Shown piece after piece: positions 3,894 to 63,631 of a DNA stretch of 64,000 nt (positions within the stretch are counted from its first letter, which is position 1; every line of letters begins with the position of its first letter). The translations under genes were made by a program, and so were the position numbers. The stretch is from Pirellulales bacterium (lineage in GTDB: Bacteria > Planctomycetota > Planctomycetia > Pirellulales > Thermoguttaceae). The stretch covers positions 1 through 64,000 of the forward strand of contig JAFGDS010000090.1 of assembly GCA_016931995.1 (NCBI GenBank), in the 5' to 3' direction. Under the pieces are notes generated by a model. That model was not told the DNA's origin and ran no database searches. It saw only the letters and a program-made list of their open reading frames with translations.

Positions 3894-4310
3894 CGGCAAA
3901 TTCGTTGTGGATTCCAGGGGTCGGGCGGAAGGGCGCCCCGGCGATCGCGCGTGTCATCCAAGACGTGACTATCCGCTTAGGGGGCTTCGGACTCAAGAGG
4001 AAAAATCGACATCTGGCCCCCAGTTTCCTCAGTCGAAAACGCTTGTCCCATCGCGAGCTATTTTCCATTTTATGGATCCTGCCCAAATACCGCGTGTGGC
4101 ACTGGCTTTGCCGGTGTTGCGTCCTCTGCATTTGCACGGGCGGAGCCCGTGGCACACCATGCCCGTTCAAAAGCCCTCGTCGACGCCTTCTTGACAGCCA
4201 CCACCGGGCGGGCGTAAGCTCATTGTTTTCGGGTGGACGGGTATCCATCTGATGTGGTATAGTGCCACGTCGGTGTCCTGGGCCAACGGTTTCTTTCACG
4301 GGGTGGCTCG
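3894..4310. other. Divergent intergenic region
   Basis: This 417-bp gap between divergent genes holds one copy of the REP palindrome (4096-4116), followed by GCACGGGCGGAGCCCGTGGCAC-like material that is a related palindrome. A TATAGT at 4258-4263 with TGGACG 18 bp upstream (4234-4239) is a possible promoter for the zinc-ribbon gene that starts at 4311. No open frame in the gap looks coding. Confidence 0.4.
4096..4116 (+). repeat. REP palindrome (family A), single copy
   Basis: GTGGCACTGGC then TTTGCCGGTG; arms CACTGGC/GCCGGTG with one mismatch to the window consensus. It lies in the divergent gap between the glycosyltransferase and the zinc-ribbon gene. Confidence 0.8.
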
Positions 4311-20814: not shown

Positions 20815-20927
20815 GTGCCACTGGCTTTGCCAGTGTGGATGCCTCTTGCCTCCCGAGTCTGAGTGCCACTGGCTTTGCCAGTGTCCTATCCCCGGGGAAC
20901 TCGAAGCACTGGCAGAGCCAGTGGCAC
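20815..20927. repeat. Three REP palindromes (family A)
   Basis: Copies at 20815-20835 and 20863-20883 are in the GTGCCAC... orientation; the one at 20907-20927 is reversed. A decayed copy (GTGCCACGGATCTGCC) precedes them. The group lies 120 bp upstream of the cysteine-cluster gene. Confidence 0.88.
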
Positions 20928-21048
20928 CCCGCGCCCCTTCGGGGTGTAAAGTGACATCCATCCGACTCGGTCCCCCGGGTGGTCATTTTCCATTGGGTCT
21001 GTTACGTTAACGGTTTACGCGGTGTCTACCCCCAACGTGGAGTTGTTC

Positions 21049-21498
21049 ATGGCCACGACGGCCCGACGCTGCCGCCCCCCGCGGACCAAACCCCGACGCA
21101 AGGACTTGAAGCCGGGCGAAGTGCTTTGCATGCACTGCCCGGCGAAGTGCTGCCGGTATTTTGCCCTGCCGATCGACACGCCGGAGACGTGGGAGGACTA
21201 CGAGTTCATCCGCTGGTATCTGCTGCACGACCGGGCGGCCGTGTTCGTGGAGGAGGACTCTTGGTATCTGCTGGTGCACAATCGCTGCAAGGTGCTCGGC
21301 GACGACAACCTGTGCCAGAAGTACGAAACGCGCCCGCAGATTTGCCGCGACTACACCACCGACAAGTGCGAATACGAGGACGACTGGGTCTACGACCAGT
21401 ACTTCGAGGCCCCCGACCAGGTGCTCGAATACGCCGAAGCCGTCCTCGGCCCGCAAGACAAACGATCGGGCCACCGCGGCCCAAGACCGGGTGGATGA
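21049..21498 (+). CDS. YkgJ-family cysteine-cluster protein
   Basis: The 149-residue protein has a basic N-terminus, then the cluster C27-x2-C30-x3-C34-C35, and a second set (RC, LC, ICRDYTTDKC). This is the CxxCxxxCC arrangement of the YkgJ/UPF0153 family, thought to bind zinc or an iron-sulfur cluster. GGAG six bases before the ATG at 21049 is better than the in-frame GTG at 21022. Function in this family is not established. The RAYT gene starts 55 bp after its stop, with one REP in between. Confidence 0.85.
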   Translation: MATTARRCRPPRTKPRRKDLKPGEVLCMHCPAKCCRYFALPIDTPETWEDYEFIRWYLLHDRAAVFVEEDSWYLLVHNRCKVLGDDNLCQKYETRPQICRDYTTDKCEYEDDWVYDQYFEAPDQVLEYAEAVLGPQDKRSGHRGPRPGG

Positions 21499-21513
21499 GG
21501 ACCGTGCCCGTGA

Positions 21514-21534
21514 GTGCCACTGGCTCCGCCAGTG
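21514..21534 (+). repeat. REP palindrome directly upstream of the RAYT gene
   Basis: Arms CACTGGC/GCCAGTG with loop TCC. It ends 19 bp before the RAYT ATG, next to the GAGGAGG ribosome-binding site. As RNA it could fold and alter access to that site. Confidence 0.9.
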
Positions 21535-21553
21535 CCTTGAGGAGGTGGTTGCC

Positions 21554-22129
21554 ATGCAGCGGCGAAAGATCGTCCGCCACTTCCACGAGGTTGGCCATCT
21601 GCACGAGTTGACGTTCTCATGCTTTCGACGGATGCCACTGCTGACCAATGACGTTTGGCGAGAGCGGTTGGCCAGGTGCATCAGCGCGGCTGGCGACGAG
21701 GAGGCCATGGAATTGGTCGGCTTCGTGTTCATGCCCGAGCACGTCCATTTGCTCGTGCATCCCACGTCGCCGACGCCGGCAATCGGCCGGTACCCGGCGC
21801 GGATCAAGCAACCGTTTTCGAGGCAGATCAGGGGGCTTTTGGAGGAGTCGGGTTCTCCGCTGTTGTCGGAGTTGACCGTGTTGGAACGACCCGGGAAGAC
21901 GTGCTTTCGTTTTTGGCTGGAGGGGCCGGGCTTCGATCGGAACGTGTTTTCGGCGGAGGCGGTCGCCGCATCCCTGGAGTACATTCACGACAATCCCGTC
22001 AAACGCGGTCTCTGCCGGCAGGCCTCGGACTGGAAATGGTCGTCGGCCCGGTATTACCTTGAGGCGCCGAGACGACAGCATCCGGGATTGCCGGTGATTC
22101 ACGATTTGCCCGAAGGAGCCCTTACGTAA
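21554..22129 (+). CDS. REP-associated tyrosine transposase (RAYT, Y1 family)
   Basis: The 191-residue protein shows the IS200/RAYT signature: HEVGHLHELTFSCFRR at the start, the metal-binding PEHVHLLVHP (H63 and H65), and the catalytic tyrosine in LEYIHDNPVKRGL (Tyr143). RAYTs nick single-stranded DNA at REP hairpins and are thought to spread or process them, but unlike insertion sequences they are usually single-copy host genes. GAGGAGG before the ATG sets the start. One REP lies just upstream and two reversed REPs just downstream (22146-22196). The open frame extends much further upstream, but that part overlaps the cysteine-cluster gene. Confidence 0.92.
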   Translation: MQRRKIVRHFHEVGHLHELTFSCFRRMPLLTNDVWRERLARCISAAGDEEAMELVGFVFMPEHVHLLVHPTSPTPAIGRYPARIKQPFSRQIRGLLEESGSPLLSELTVLERPGKTCFRFWLEGPGFDRNVFSAEAVAASLEYIHDNPVKRGLCRQASDWKWSSARYYLEAPRRQHPGLPVIHDLPEGALT

Positions 22130-22145
22130 CGAGGCCCAGGGAAGG

Positions 22146-22196
22146 CACTGGCAAAGCCAGTGGCACTCAATAAAGCACTGGCGGAGCCAGTGGCAC
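22146..22196 (-). repeat. Two REP palindromes downstream of the RAYT gene
   Basis: Copies at 22146-22166 (loop AAA) and 22176-22196 (loop GGA), both opposite in orientation to the copy upstream of the RAYT gene. Together they bracket the transposase, and they end about 44 bp before the hisS start. Confidence 0.9.
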
Positions 22197-22239
22197 TCAG
22201 AAATCCCAGCTTCCACAAATTGAATCATCGAAACCGACC

Positions 22240-23592
22240 GTGACCACCGAACGCATCACACCGCGAACGCTCAAGGGTTTCCGCGACTATCTGCCGGAGG
22301 CGATGATTCCGCGCGAGCGGCTCATCGAGACGGCGCGGCGGGTGTATCGCGGCTACGGGTTCAGCCCGATCGACACGCCGGCGCTGGAATACCTGGAAGT
22401 TCTCTCCGGCAAAGGGGGCGAGGAGAGCGACAAGCAGCTTTACCAGTTCCAGGATCACGGCGGCCGTTGGGTCGGCATGCGGTTCGACCTGACCGTGCCG
22501 TTTGCCCGGTTCGCCGCCGCGCACATCGCCGAGCTGGGCACGCCCTTTAAGCGATACCACATCGCCGCCGTCTGGCGCGGCGAAAACACCCAGCGCGGCC
22601 GCTACCGCGAGTTCATGCAGTGCGACTTCGACACGATCGGCACCCGCGCGATCGCGGCCGACGTCGAGACCGCCCTGGTCATCCACGACCTCTTTCGCGC
22701 GATCGGGCTGGGACCGTTCACGATCCGCGTGAACAACCGCATGGTGCTCACCGGTTTGCTGGAGCGGCTGGACCTGGCCGATCGGGCCGCGGCGGTGCTG
22801 CGGGCGCTGGACAAGCTGCCCAAAATCGGACCCGCCCGGGTGCTCGATGAGATGATGTCCGCCGCGGGGGCCACCAACGAGCAGGCCGACGAGGTGCTCC
22901 GGCTGGCGGCCCTGGAGGGCACGAACGACGAATTGCTCCGGCGGATCGAGCCGCTCGTGGCCGGCAATACCACAGGCCAGGAGGGCGCCGGCCGGCTGGC
23001 CGAGTTGCTCGCGGCCGTCCGCGCCGCCGGCGTCGCGCCCGAGCGGATCCAGCTTGACGTGGCGATCGCTCGCGGGCTGGACTATTACACGGGCACCGTC
23101 TTCGAGACCTTCCTCGACGCCCTGCCGGGCATCGGCAGCGTGTGCTCCGGCGGACGCTACGACAATCTGGCCGGCCTGTTCACCAGCCAGGAGCTGCCCG
23201 GCGTCGGGGCATCGCTCGGATTGGATCGACTCCTGGCCGCCATGGAGGAACTCGGCGCGATCGAGCGCGTGGCCACGACCGCGCCGGTGTTCATCCCGTT
23301 CTTCGACAAGGACCGGCTGCACGACTACCTGCGTCTGGCCGCCGACCTGCGGGCCGGCGGCGTGGGCGTCGAGCTGTACCCCGAACCGAAAAAGCTTGGC
23401 CAACAACTCAAGTACGCCGACCGGCGCGGGTTCCGCTTTGCATTGATCGCCGGGCAAAGCGAGTTCGACGCCGGCGTGGTGCAGCTTAAGGACCTTGCCC
23501 ACGGCACGCAGGATAGCGTCCCGCTCGATCCCGGCGCGGCGGTGCTCCTGGCCACGCTCGGCCAGCGTCTGGCGGCGCGGAGGGAACGCTAG
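22240..23592 (+). CDS. hisS: Histidine--tRNA ligase
   Basis: The 450-residue class II synthetase shows motif 1 near EYLEVLSGKGGEESDKQLYQF, motif 2 FKRYHIAAVWRGENTQRGRYR, the histidine-specific LDYYTGTVFE and motif 3 PGVGASLGLDRLL, followed by the anticodon-binding domain. It charges tRNA-His with histidine. Translation starts at a GTG, since no ATG lies near the N-terminal TPRTLKGFRDYLP box. It sits just after the RAYT gene and its REPs. Nothing suggests an operon with either neighbour. Confidence 0.95.
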   Translation: MTTERITPRTLKGFRDYLPEAMIPRERLIETARRVYRGYGFSPIDTPALEYLEVLSGKGGEESDKQLYQFQDHGGRWVGMRFDLTVPFARFAAAHIAELGTPFKRYHIAAVWRGENTQRGRYREFMQCDFDTIGTRAIAADVETALVIHDLFRAIGLGPFTIRVNNRMVLTGLLERLDLADRAAAVLRALDKLPKIGPARVLDEMMSAAGATNEQADEVLRLAALEGTNDELLRRIEPLVAGNTTGQEGAGRLAELLAAVRAAGVAPERIQLDVAIARGLDYYTGTVFETFLDALPGIGSVCSGGRYDNLAGLFTSQELPGVGASLGLDRLLAAMEELGAIERVATTAPVFIPFFDKDRLHDYLRLAADLRAGGVGVELYPEPKKLGQQLKYADRRGFRFALIAGQSEFDAGVVQLKDLAHGTQDSVPLDPGAAVLLATLGQRLAARRER

Positions 23593-31054: not shown

Positions 31055-31121
31055 GTGCCACTGGCTTTGCCAGTGCTGTCGTTGGACACCAAGGATCGGG
31101 CACTGGCAAAGCCAGTGGCAC
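31055..31121. repeat. Opposed REP pair upstream of lnt
   Basis: Copies at 31055-31075 (forward) and 31101-31121 (reverse), 25 bp apart, forming a larger inverted repeat between the amidotransferase and lnt genes. Confidence 0.88.
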
Positions 31122-31789: not shown

Positions 31790-31874
31790 GTGCCACTGGC
31801 TTTGCCAGTGCGTGCGTCGCAGCGTCCTGGGTACAGTGAGCAACGACATAAGGCACTGGCGGAGCCAGTGGCAC
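31790..31874. repeat. Opposed REP pair
   Basis: Copies at 31790-31810 (forward, loop TTT) and 31854-31874 (reverse, loop GGA), upstream of the amidotransferase gene. Confidence 0.88.
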
Positions 31875-47930: not shown

Positions 47931-47981
47931 CGCTGGCAGAGCCAGTGGCACTCAGAACGGCACTGGCAAAGCCAGTGGCAC
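47931..47981 (-). repeat. Two REP palindromes, same orientation
   Basis: Copies at 47931-47951 (one mismatch in the left arm, CGCTGGC) and 47961-47981, both reverse, 9 bp apart, about 90 bp before the helicase gene. Confidence 0.85.
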
Positions 47982-50122: not shown

Positions 50123-50570
50123 GCGCTATGGAGTGCGGCGACTCGTCGCCACCTTCTCTCCGTTGCCGCGTCGTGTGTCACTGGCTCCGCCAGTGCGTGT
50201 AGGTCAGGCTGTGCCTGACAACGCCGCGTGTCGTGTGCCACTGGCTCCGCCAGTGCGCGGCCACGTGGATTCGTCGGGATCGGTGATCCGCCGCATCGAC
50301 GGGCTTCTGAAACGGGGCACTGGCGGAGCCAGTGGCACACGAGCGCGCTACCTCGCACTGGCGGAGCCAGTGGCACGCGAGCGCCTGAAATGGGCACTGG
50401 CGGAGCCAGTGGCACGCGAGCGCTACCCGACTTTCGGGCCCCTGCTCCGGAGTGCGTCCGGTATGACTGACAAGGGTGCGTCGGGCATCGACCGCCGACG
50501 TAGAATTCATGTAGGAGAGAAATCTGGAGGAGAAGACAAGCCAACTGCTCATACACGAAGGAGGCGGATC
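50123..50570. other. Intergenic region dominated by a REP array
   Basis: Five REP palindromes fill 50175-50415. The last 150 bp before the small membrane-protein gene carry no repeat; no convincing promoter pair was found there. Confidence 0.5.
50175..50415. repeat. REP array, five copies (BIME-like)
   Basis: Copies at 50175-50195 and 50235-50255 are forward; those at 50318-50338, 50356-50376 and 50395-50415 are reversed. The loop is CCG/CGG-type throughout. Spacers are 39, 62, 17 and 18 bp. The last two spacers share GCGAGCGC/ACGAGCGC sequence, which suggests local duplication. Confidence 0.9.
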
Positions 50571-50903: not shown

Positions 50904-51006
50904 GTGCCACTGGCTCCGCCAGTGTTGAACGTGGGGGAACGTAAACGCCGGGAGGCGTTCACCATGGAGAACTGCCGCCACCGCGCACTGGCAAAGCCAG
51001 TGGCAC
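50904..51006. repeat. Opposed REP pair
   Basis: Forward copy 50904-50924 and reverse copy 50986-51006, 61 bp apart, in the convergent gap before the ROK kinase stop codon. Confidence 0.85.
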
Positions 51007-53712: not shown

Positions 53713-53775
53713 GTGCCACTGGCTTTGCCAGTGCCGCAAAGATGGGGGCTTCCGTGCTGGCCGAGCCAGTGGGCA
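53713..53775. repeat. REP pair, one copy degenerate
   Basis: Forward copy 53713-53733; a decayed reverse copy (GCTGGCCGAGCCAGTGGGCAC-like) at about 53755-53775. Located between the glycohydrolase and zinc-ribbon genes. Confidence 0.75.
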
Positions 53776-62647: not shown

Positions 62648-63631
62648 TTGGCGTCAACGCCCTCGCACCCCCCTGAGGCTGGACCAGCCTGGCGAATCGC
62701 CGGGTTCCGCTACTACCCGTTGCGTTTTTATTATAACCGGCACTTCGGCCGGCCTGTATGGAAAGTCAGCATCGACGCCAGTTTCGGATGTCCCAACCGC
62801 GACGGCACGCTGGGTACATTGGGGTGCGTGTTCTGCGACCCGGCCGCCTTCAGCCCGAGCCGCCGCTTCGCCGCCGAGCCCCTCGCCCGGCAGATCGACC
62901 GCGGCCTGGAACGGATTCGCCGCCGCCGGCCCGATATTAACCGGGCGATCGCGTACTTCCAGCCCGGCACGAACACCTACGCCCCGGTGGCGCGCCTTCG
63001 GGCGGTGTACGAGGAAGCGTTGGCCCATCCGGCCGTCGTGGGTCTGGCCGTGGGCACGCGGCCCGACTGTTTGGGCGACGACGTGCTCGATCTCCTGGCC
63101 GACGTCTCACGGCGAACCTGGCTCGGCGTCGAGATCGGCCTGCAGTCCATCCATGACCGGTCGCTGGCGTGGATGCGTCGCGGACACGGGTACAACGCGT
63201 TCGTCGACGCCGTGCGGCGGGGCCACGCCCGAGGGCTGCGTCTGGGGGCGCACGTCATCCTGGGCCTTCCCGGCGAAACCCGCGACGACATGCTCGCCAC
63301 GGCCGATGCGTTGGTGGAATTGGGTATCGCCTCGGTCAAGCTCCATCAGCTTTACGCCGTCCGCGATACGCCGCTTGCCCAGGCGGTGGCCGCCGGCGAG
63401 GTCCGCCTCTTGGACCTCGACGAATTCGTCGCGTGCGCGGTCGAGTTCCTCGAACACCTTGGGCCCGACTGCGTCATCGACCGGCTCCTGGGCGACGCGC
63501 CGGCGGAGTACCTGATCGGTCCCGACTGGTGCCGCGACAAGCCCCGGGCCCTGGCGGCCATCGAGAACGAATTGGCCCGCCGCGACACCTGGCAAGGCCG
63601 CTCGCGTGCCACTGGCTCCGCCGGTGCTTGA
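62648..63631 (+). CDS. Radical SAM protein, TIGR01212/YhcC type
   Basis: The 327-residue protein has the unusual cluster motif of this family (CPNRDGTLGTLGCVFCD), YFQPGTNTYAPV, GTRPDCLGDDVLDLL and LGVEIGLQSIHD. Family members bind a 4Fe-4S cluster and S-adenosylmethionine; their substrate is not settled. The start is a TTG with AAGGGG upstream, as no ATG precedes the core. The last residues, SRATGSAGA, are a REP palindrome (63606-63626) read as protein. Confidence 0.9.
   Translation: MASTPSHPPEAGPAWRIAGFRYYPLRFYYNRHFGRPVWKVSIDASFGCPNRDGTLGTLGCVFCDPAAFSPSRRFAAEPLARQIDRGLERIRRRRPDINRAIAYFQPGTNTYAPVARLRAVYEEALAHPAVVGLAVGTRPDCLGDDVLDLLADVSRRTWLGVEIGLQSIHDRSLAWMRRGHGYNAFVDAVRRGHARGLRLGAHVILGLPGETRDDMLATADALVELGIASVKLHQLYAVRDTPLAQAVAAGEVRLLDLDEFVACAVEFLEHLGPDCVIDRLLGDAPAEYLIGPDWCRDKPRALAAIENELARRDTWQGRSRATGSAGA
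63606..63626 (+). repeat. REP palindrome at the end of a CDS
   Basis: GTGCCACTGGCTCCGCCGGT plus G; one mismatch in the right arm. It lies within the last codons of the radical SAM gene. Confidence 0.82.

Follow-up and report, generated by a model that had tools for sequence, protein, structure and literature searches.

A planctomycete RAYT transposase with its own GTGC-footed REPs, and evidence that whole units move and shrink

REPtrons, REPINs, and the co-evolution of RAYTs with REPs are established in proteobacteria (PMC2817692, PMC3116915, PMC6006769, PMC8266576). Specifically, the REPtrons of E. coli, Stenotrophomonas, and Pseudomonas (PMC2817692, PMC6006769, PMC8266576) comprise a Y1/HUH protein of the 4er8 fold bracketed by inverted REPs, with a REP stem proper to each lineage, a GT[AG]G foot, and hundreds of REPs per genome, and REPINs are non-autonomous pairs of inverted REPs that are separated by a short spacer and tied to one RAYT (Bertels and Rainey 2011, PMC3116915). 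That source regards RAYTs as apparently unable to mobilise themselves and mentions, as a possible origin, REPs on either side of an IS200-like ancestor. Movement of TnpAREP-like genes has a precedent, because subclass 2.3 of these genes shows recent active spread in Chromatiales and Alteromonadales, where it occurs without REPs (PMC6006769). Among planctomycetes, REP families and numerous tyrosine transposase genes flanked by repeats were described in 2013 for Rhodopirellula baltica (PMC3733652). In a literature search by title and abstract start, neither GTGC-footed REPs nor self-mobile RAYTs were the subject of any paper; such a search leaves aside the majority of subscription papers and the supplements, and absence from print is not claimed. 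In the IS200/IS605 family, the left and right hairpins of an element differ, guide tetranucleotides are employed, and the targets are TTAC-like.

The locus described here lies in the genome of a Pirellulales bacterium (5.43 Mb, 153 contigs, 99% complete), within a stretch of 64,000 nucleotides that was analysed as a whole (the window), and consists of a RAYT gene with one forward REP upstream and two reversed REPs downstream (Table 1), as the earlier note had described. The RAYT and its own REPs are real, and what is unusual is the GTGC foot together with the evidence of whole units moving and shrinking. As in the proteobacterial REPtrons, a protein of the 4er8 fold is bracketed by inverted REPs, the stem belongs to the lineage, and the REPs number in the hundreds per genome; moreover, the perfect stem with a short loop recalls their group 3, whereas the GT[AG]G foot is replaced by GTGC, preceded by a conserved G at -2, and the planctomycete unit differs in looking movable. 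The short REP pairs of this genome correspond to REPINs in their two inverted REPs and short spacer, in being non-autonomous, and in their tie to one RAYT, whereas units of intermediate size with RAYT remnants inside the REPs are seen here as well. As in IS608 and ISDra2 of the IS200/IS605 family, a single-tyrosine HUH transposase lies within hairpins that carry a foot tetranucleotide on their 5' side, whereas the unit here ends in inverted copies of one REP. The earlier note presented the locus as the gammaproteobacterial REPtron layout in a planctomycete; the layout is confirmed, but it is not new as stated, since REPtrons from outside the gammaproteobacteria, including those of R. baltica, are in PMC3733652. 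In that source, the planctomycete REPs are filed under GTAG repeats, as opposed to the GTGC foot found here (a comparison of families by description only), and no word beginning GTGC occurs in its main text.

With a probability of about 0.78, the locus as a whole is best explained as an IS200/IS605-like unit in which the RAYT gene lies inside REPs with outward GTGC feet and the RAYT acts on these REPs. The protein would bind the foot and stem of the REP hairpin in single-stranded DNA, cut next to the hairpin with Tyr143, and move or copy whatever lies between outward REPs. With the whole unit as its substrate, it would move the RAYT gene; with internally deleted units, on which it would act in trans, it would spread short REP pairs (REPINs, mostly of about 64 bp), the decay of which would leave single REPs. 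Binding, cleavage, the strand used, and catalysis of the movement by the RAYT of the window rather than by recombination are inferred; the geometry, the abundance, the cognate specificity, the co-diversification, the adjoining of the flanking genes without a RAYT in relatives, and the end of homology at REP feet were computed directly.

Table 1. Position of the RAYT unit, its neighbours, and the REPs in the 64,000-nucleotide window
Feature	Position	Strand	Remarks
REP pair	4096..4155		feet outward, 2 mismatches each
Three REPs	20815..20927		order + + -
CxxCxxCC protein (PF03692)	21022..21498	+	left neighbour of the RAYT unit
Upstream REP	21512..21534	+	GA + GTGC foot + CACTGGC hairpin (21514-21534 without GA); foot outward; proposed left end of the unit
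RAYT (Y1/HUH tyrosine transposase)	21554..22129	+	191 aa, HVH + YIHDNP, PF01797
Inner downstream REP	22146..22168	-	core 22146-22166; foot outward
Outer downstream REP	22176..22198	-	core 22176-22196; foot outward; proposed right end of the unit
hisS, histidine--tRNA ligase	22240..23592	+	right neighbour of the RAYT unit; TIGR00442 418 bits, cut-off 287
REP pair	31055..31121		outward, REPIN-like
REP pair	31790..31874		outward
Two REPs	47931..47981	-	common orientation
Five REPs	50175..50415		order + + - - -
REP pair	50904..51006		outward
REP	53713..53733	+	weaker palindrome after it at 53755
REP	63606..63626	+	1 mismatch

The identification of the gene as a Y1 transposase with HVH and YIHDNP motifs, proposed from the open reading frame, is borne out. 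The product matches PF01797 with 28.9 bits against a cut-off of 23, the HVH motif corresponds to residues 63-65, the YIHDNP motif includes Y143, and H63, H65, Y143, N147, and P148 are invariant across the 31 aligned rows; the Y1_Tnp domain, the HUH motif, and the single catalytic Tyr followed by NP that characterise RAYT/TnpAREP proteins are thus all present. The best NCBIfam match is REP_Tyr_transpos (NF047646; 70.4 bits, E 1.5e-19, below the curated cut-off of 80), and the IS200 model scores 24.1 bits against a cut-off of 55. The predicted structure (pLDDT 93.1) is closest to 4er8, a complex of the E. coli TnpAREP with a REP hairpin (Foldseek E 1.2e-8; Z 16.2, rmsd 2.8, 146 aligned), which is also its sole solved relative in a sequence profile search at E<=0.001; the next entry in the structural alignment is IS608 (Z 12.1). 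Accordingly, compared with the IS200/IS605 transposases, the fold is nearer 4er8 than IS608, and the tyrosine motif ends in NP as in class 2. Thg1 rows (Z 6.6-8.7) and viral Rep rows (Z 6-7) also aligned with the model and are read as reflecting a common arrangement. The motif set EHVH, WL, YIHDNP fits no subclass row of Table 1 of PMC6006769 when compared by motifs rather than by the published HMMs, and the combination of EHVH with YIHxNP is likewise absent from the accessible version of that table. The WL of this set distinguishes the window RAYT from nearly all relatives, which have Gln instead of Leu after the conserved Trp. The change might matter for foot contact, because W94 and Q95 are named in PMC6006769 within the foot-contacting region of the E. 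coli protein (their correspondence to this position is our own reading of the alignment), and the replacement of a near-invariant residue makes the activity of the window RAYT itself uncertain. In eight close RAYT pairs, several with dS above 1, dN/dS of 0.07-0.22 indicates purifying selection. The transposase had also been called single-copy, which holds for this RAYT but not for its domain, since the genome has seven Y1_Tnp matches, the window RAYT included. As for individual relatives, the frame at positions 1501-2004 of locus L128 (Blastopirellula marina DSM 3645) contains a stop codon. Further relatives are present in metagenome-assembled genomes of other phyla, titled Desulfomonile tiedjei (L163) and Armatimonadetes (L183, L184); the first of these has a CTGCTGG REP with a GGGTGC foot, and for such loci transfer and binning error are both possible.

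REPs are abundant both in the window and in the genome. The earlier estimate of about 23 copies is exact: allowing up to 3 mismatches to GTGCCACTGGCNNNGCCAGTG, the window has 23 separate REPs, 18 of them perfect, which include every place that had been listed, antisense readings of one palindrome being taken once, and the 17-base palindrome has 30 matches with up to 3 mismatches against 5.2 expected and a maximum of 12 in 100 shuffles. The genome-wide count that had been suggested as a check gives 617 exact copies of GTGCCACTGGCNNNGCCAGTG (305 + 312) and none of the same pattern read backwards, in agreement with a short extragenic palindrome in high copy, whereas the GTGC foot departs from the canonical GT[AG]G. 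In a 740-kb sample of the 5.43 Mb that takes in the window, 135 REPs, allowing up to 2 mismatches, align in the block Y-G-H-GTGC-CACTGGC-TYY-GCCAGTG-C. The G at -2 is conserved in 98% of them, a trait that the earlier note had not recorded, each base of the foot in 96-98%, and the first loop base is T in 97%; position +21 is C in 80% and T in 16%. Conservation ends at about -4 and, on the 3' side of solo REPs, after +21, bar weak scattered positions, so the REP is a polar element: its foot lies at the 5' end, and its loop is conserved too. REP centres fall inside called genes in 31 of the 135 cases against 111 expected, as judged by a crude gene caller of our own that missed the RAYT itself. 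As to a possible preference for convergent genes, these border 15 of the 49 intergenic REP clusters, compared with 64 of 326 gaps.

Neighbouring REPs within 200 bp are predominantly in the +- order (45, against 13 ++, 8 --, and 1 -+), with a modal spacing of 43 bp that corresponds to 64-bp units with a 22-bp spacer. Among 29 such REPIN-like units, nine spacer pairs have at least 14 identities, compared with a shuffled mean of 0.35; the order, the modal spacing, and the spacer likeness together indicate that two inverted REPs are duplicated as a unit, as in REPINs. The closest spacer pair, on contigs C7 and C5, has common flanks too, is a segment duplication, and was accordingly rejected as evidence of transposition; a third unit, on C15, has 18 of 22 spacer bases in common with the C7 unit and unlike flanks. 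Separately, four REPs stand head to tail with a 34-bp step at positions 250-372 of locus L034 (contig C13 of this genome), an order unlike the usual outward pairs, and at positions 1259-1279 of this locus a REP lies in frame at the 3' end of another Y1 transposase (YVELNP motif), where it reads ECHWLRQC. The earlier note further proposed that the upstream REP, which does end 19 nt before the ATG, may control translation of the RAYT. This proposal is rejected as unsupported, because the distance varies (at RAYT loci, the median start of the nearest upstream hairpin is -76, and the values are widely scattered) and, in a single-sequence RNA fold, the Shine-Dalgarno-like stretch has the coding sequence rather than the upstream REP as its pairing partner.

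Several lines of evidence suggest that RAYT and REPs form a discrete movable unit. The CxxCxxCC gene is found in 14 of 20 family members and, within the fetched stretch, is followed by hisS in 13 of these 14; the alignment gap between the two genes is 50-204 bp in 12 of the 13 relatives and 502 bp in the remaining one, and none of the 13 has a RAYT match, whereas the gap here is 741 bp, 687 bp of which are the REP-to-REP unit (21512-22198; its right end might instead be 22168, if the inner downstream REP is the end). In addition, neither neighbour gene occurs in the fetched flanks of other RAYT loci, each matching only the locus of the window among the 150 searched. When 15 related pairs of RAYT loci were compared (at most 97% identical, 250 bp of flank, REPs on both sides of the first locus), both homology edges fell within 5 bp of a REP edge in four pairs and the right edge within 3 bp in ten. 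In a pair from two genera (L051/L056), the match spans REP foot to REP foot. Genome G089 has an internally deleted copy (L255) that aligns with the full unit at 87-90%; the alignment starts exactly at the initial base of GTGTGCC and stops at the final base of GGCACAC, and the sequences beyond it differ. A further copy in the same genome (L256) has one internal deletion and flanks in common with the full unit, and was rejected as a clean transposed deletion because homology extends past both REPs. Out of 15 RAYT fragment loci, six are enclosed by outward REPs (L255, L256, L283, L286, L288, and L289; spans of 392-551 bp), three have REPs on one side, and six have none. The units between outward REPs thus form a shortened series of about 690, 550, 500, 490, and 390 bp across several genomes, and two or more close RAYT copies, whole or broken, occur at different places in G099, G192, G021, G024, and G089.

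The most serious alternative is that the RAYT is a domesticated host gene that stays in place, so that only REPINs move in trans and the adjoining REPs are ordinary REPIN insertions or old IS remnants. It agrees with the single copy in the genome of the window, with the purifying selection on close RAYT pairs, and with PMC8049555, PMC3116915, and PMC3733652, which call RAYTs single-copy, vertically inherited, or unable to self-propagate. It also agrees with one congeneric pair (L069/L071) in which homology runs 634 bp on into a common upstream flank, so that vertical inheritance also occurs. This pair is, however, the exception: a gene held at a fixed locus is at odds with the 13 relatives in which the flanking genes adjoin without a RAYT, with the absence of both neighbour genes from the fetched flanks of other RAYT loci, and with the genomes that harbour close copies at different places. 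Domestication is therefore considered unlikely, though it keeps a substantial minority share, self-mobility of the RAYT and REP unit is somewhat favoured, and the planctomycete units, judged by their sequences, appear to depart from the RAYTs of the three sources above.

The second issue is whether the RAYT is the partner of the REPs or merely inserted among palindromes with a regulatory or structural role for the host, such as terminators or gyrase or nucleoid sites. The mostly extragenic position of the REPs and the 20 REP-rich genomes discussed below speak for such a role. Conversely, REPs are enriched right at RAYT genes. In a set of 112 full-length homologues out of 118 distinct loci, with REP-like hairpins defined by a GTG[CG]CA foot, their density is 2.82/kb within 300 bp of the gene and 0.34/kb at 700-1300 bp, and no hairpin arises in one mononucleotide shuffle of each flank. 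A REP lies within 300 bp on both sides at 62 of the 112 loci, on one side at 21, and on neither at 29, and the nearest REPs of the two-sided loci are in the order +- 48 times, -- 10 times, ++ three times, and -+ once; the gene is thus flanked by REPs that are dispersed in its own genome, as in described RAYT/TnpAREP systems. The foot is nearly constant across these loci (at 84 typed loci, the commonest is GTGC in 72 and GTGG in 12), and the stem varies by lineage, including CACTGGC, CACTGGC[AG], CACTGCTGG, CACTGGCGG, CACTGGTGG, CACTG[CT][CT]G, CATG[GC]CCACG, and a few others. On the tree of the 112 RAYTs, 83 of which have a stem label, the stem type changes 17 times against a shuffled mean of 53.3, and none of 200 shuffles is as low.

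REP number also tracks RAYT presence in related genomes, a relation that the earlier note had suggested checking. At least 10 generic REPs are present in 46 of the 66 RAYT-bearing genomes, compared with 20 of the other 230 (296 genomes of the order; Fisher p 1.4e-22), and within the family in 8 of 10 and 5 of 57, respectively (p 7.6e-6). The generic pattern is GTGCCACTGN{7,13}CAGTG, a RAYT is scored as present when matched at E<=1e-19, only totals of at least 3 were entered with the remainder set to 0, and the reversed control pattern never exceeds 7 per genome. Fewer than 10 generic REPs occur in 20 of the 66 RAYT-bearing genomes, which is partly due to CATG stems escaping the pattern (G061 has none by the generic pattern and 121 of the CATG type). 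Moreover, the commonest REP type of a genome is the one that flanks its RAYT in 23 of 31 genomes (shuffled mean 8.6, maximum 20 in 20,000) and, when the commonest type has at least 10 copies, in 16 of 20 (shuffled mean 5.9, maximum 14). The types scored are A (CACTGGC), B (CACTGCTGG), C (CACTGGCR), and CATG, for which alone genomes with multiple RAYTs were entered; the first matrix comprised the 30 of 57 searched genomes with such flanks and gave 23 of 30, and G022, left out at first, was then added as a misfit, as its RAYT has type A stems on a GTGG foot. Another of the eight misfits, G089, is likely explained by its truncated RAYT of the B type (91% to L051 over 58 aa), which is followed at about 18 bp by a B-type REP, and the CATG-type RAYT relative found in G182 does not explain the type A excess of that genome. 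All these association tests still include the common ancestry of the genomes. Taken together, abundance, fit of stem to tree, and type match argue that RAYT and REPs are very probably cognate, which upholds the view of the REPs as RAYT substrates, their cleavage being a prediction, and makes host palindromes that a transposase happened to enter improbable.

The earlier note held that relatives lacking the RAYT and equally rich in REPs would count against the pairing. Such genomes exist in part, since 20 of the 296 have 10-101 generic REPs and no RAYT match at E<=1e-19, but a profile search of these twenty and of the window's genome detects distant, fragmentary, or stop-containing RAYT relatives in 18 of the 20 and none in G052 or G070. 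A few of the 29 such loci that were read have foot-like palindromes near the match, and most have none. One relative (L303, contig C410 of G130) lies within an outward pair with the stem CACCGGCG, at 1430 and 1963, and another (L297, contig C686 of G026) between GTGGCACGGTC palindromes at 1374 and 2070 (CACGGTC), from which the family may hold further RAYT-REP pairs. The palindromes of both loci have GTGG feet and other stems. A RAYT fragment adjoins a type A REP in L318 (G178), and a REP is at or near the short RAYT match in L305 and L309. Incomplete assemblies can explain some of these genomes, but hardly G150, a single contig, 96% complete, in which the generic pattern finds 101 REPs and the type C pattern 98, many of these in pairs exactly 51 bp apart, and in which the only RAYT relative is distant and has no REPs; its REPINs seem to have outlived their transposase or to do without it. 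In the genome of the window itself, 60 REPs of the CTGCTGG type (B-type) and 72 of the CATG type (CATGSCCACG) share the GTGCC foot of the CACTGGC REPs, and no matching RAYT was found in it, the other profile matches being weak (E 1.8e-6 or worse). These appear to be orphan REP families, with position 439 of locus L034 as one place of occurrence, so REPs can outlive or lack a partner, and the simplest reading of the RAYT-poor genomes is that REP populations outlive their RAYT.

The possibility that another Y1 transposase of the same genome mobilises the REPs, such as the IS200-like gene L032 on contig C34, which has REPs roughly 150-200 bp away on its two sides, is less probable still and was rejected, as the REP nearest upstream of L032 points inward and belongs to a pair that is complete in itself (order + - gene -), stem types track the RAYT tree, and no REP is close to the transposase at the 30 fetched loci (of 46 matches listed) of other Y1 transposases in ten REP-rich genomes without a close RAYT, where only L212 has a foot-like palindrome, at the far edge of the locus and readable both ways, a result that also weighs against host palindromes.

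Returning to the IS200/IS605-like unit, the foot offers a prediction on cleavage. In Marinomonas, the dinucleotide to be cleaved is chosen through its complementarity to bases 3-4, or 2 and 4, of the foot; comparable experiments on the E. coli and Stenotrophomonas systems were unsuccessful (PMC8266576). Applied by analogy to GTGC, this guide rule would tentatively predict cleavage at G|C or G|A. The 3' side of the REPs in the window's genome fits the rule, being G-C (C at +21) in 107 of 134 and G-T in 22 of 134. The -2 G, retained with the GTGG foot in 35 of 35 and with the GTGC foot in 143 of 148, the -1 position, mostly G in relatives (104 of 148), and the end of unit homology 5' of the -2 G do not fit it simply; as an explanation of the conserved flanks the rule was therefore not adopted, and it is left as a prediction. 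The chances are even for the fuller proposal, namely that a planctomycete RAYT with two outward REPs would be a self-mobile IS in the state postulated as the ancestor of domesticated RAYTs, that its shortened series would end in the REPINs of about 64 bp, and that the GTGC foot would be a guide predicting G|C or G|A instead of C|T.

REPINs have been proposed to descend from an autonomous RAYT element (PMC3116915), of which the RAYTs in that source give no living example, because they appear there as immobile single copies. Whole units, shortened units, REPINs, and about ten stem types that track the RAYT tree within one phylum would let both this origin and the recognition code be tested, and a foot unlike GT[AG]G would provide a sharp test of the guide-sequence cleavage model.
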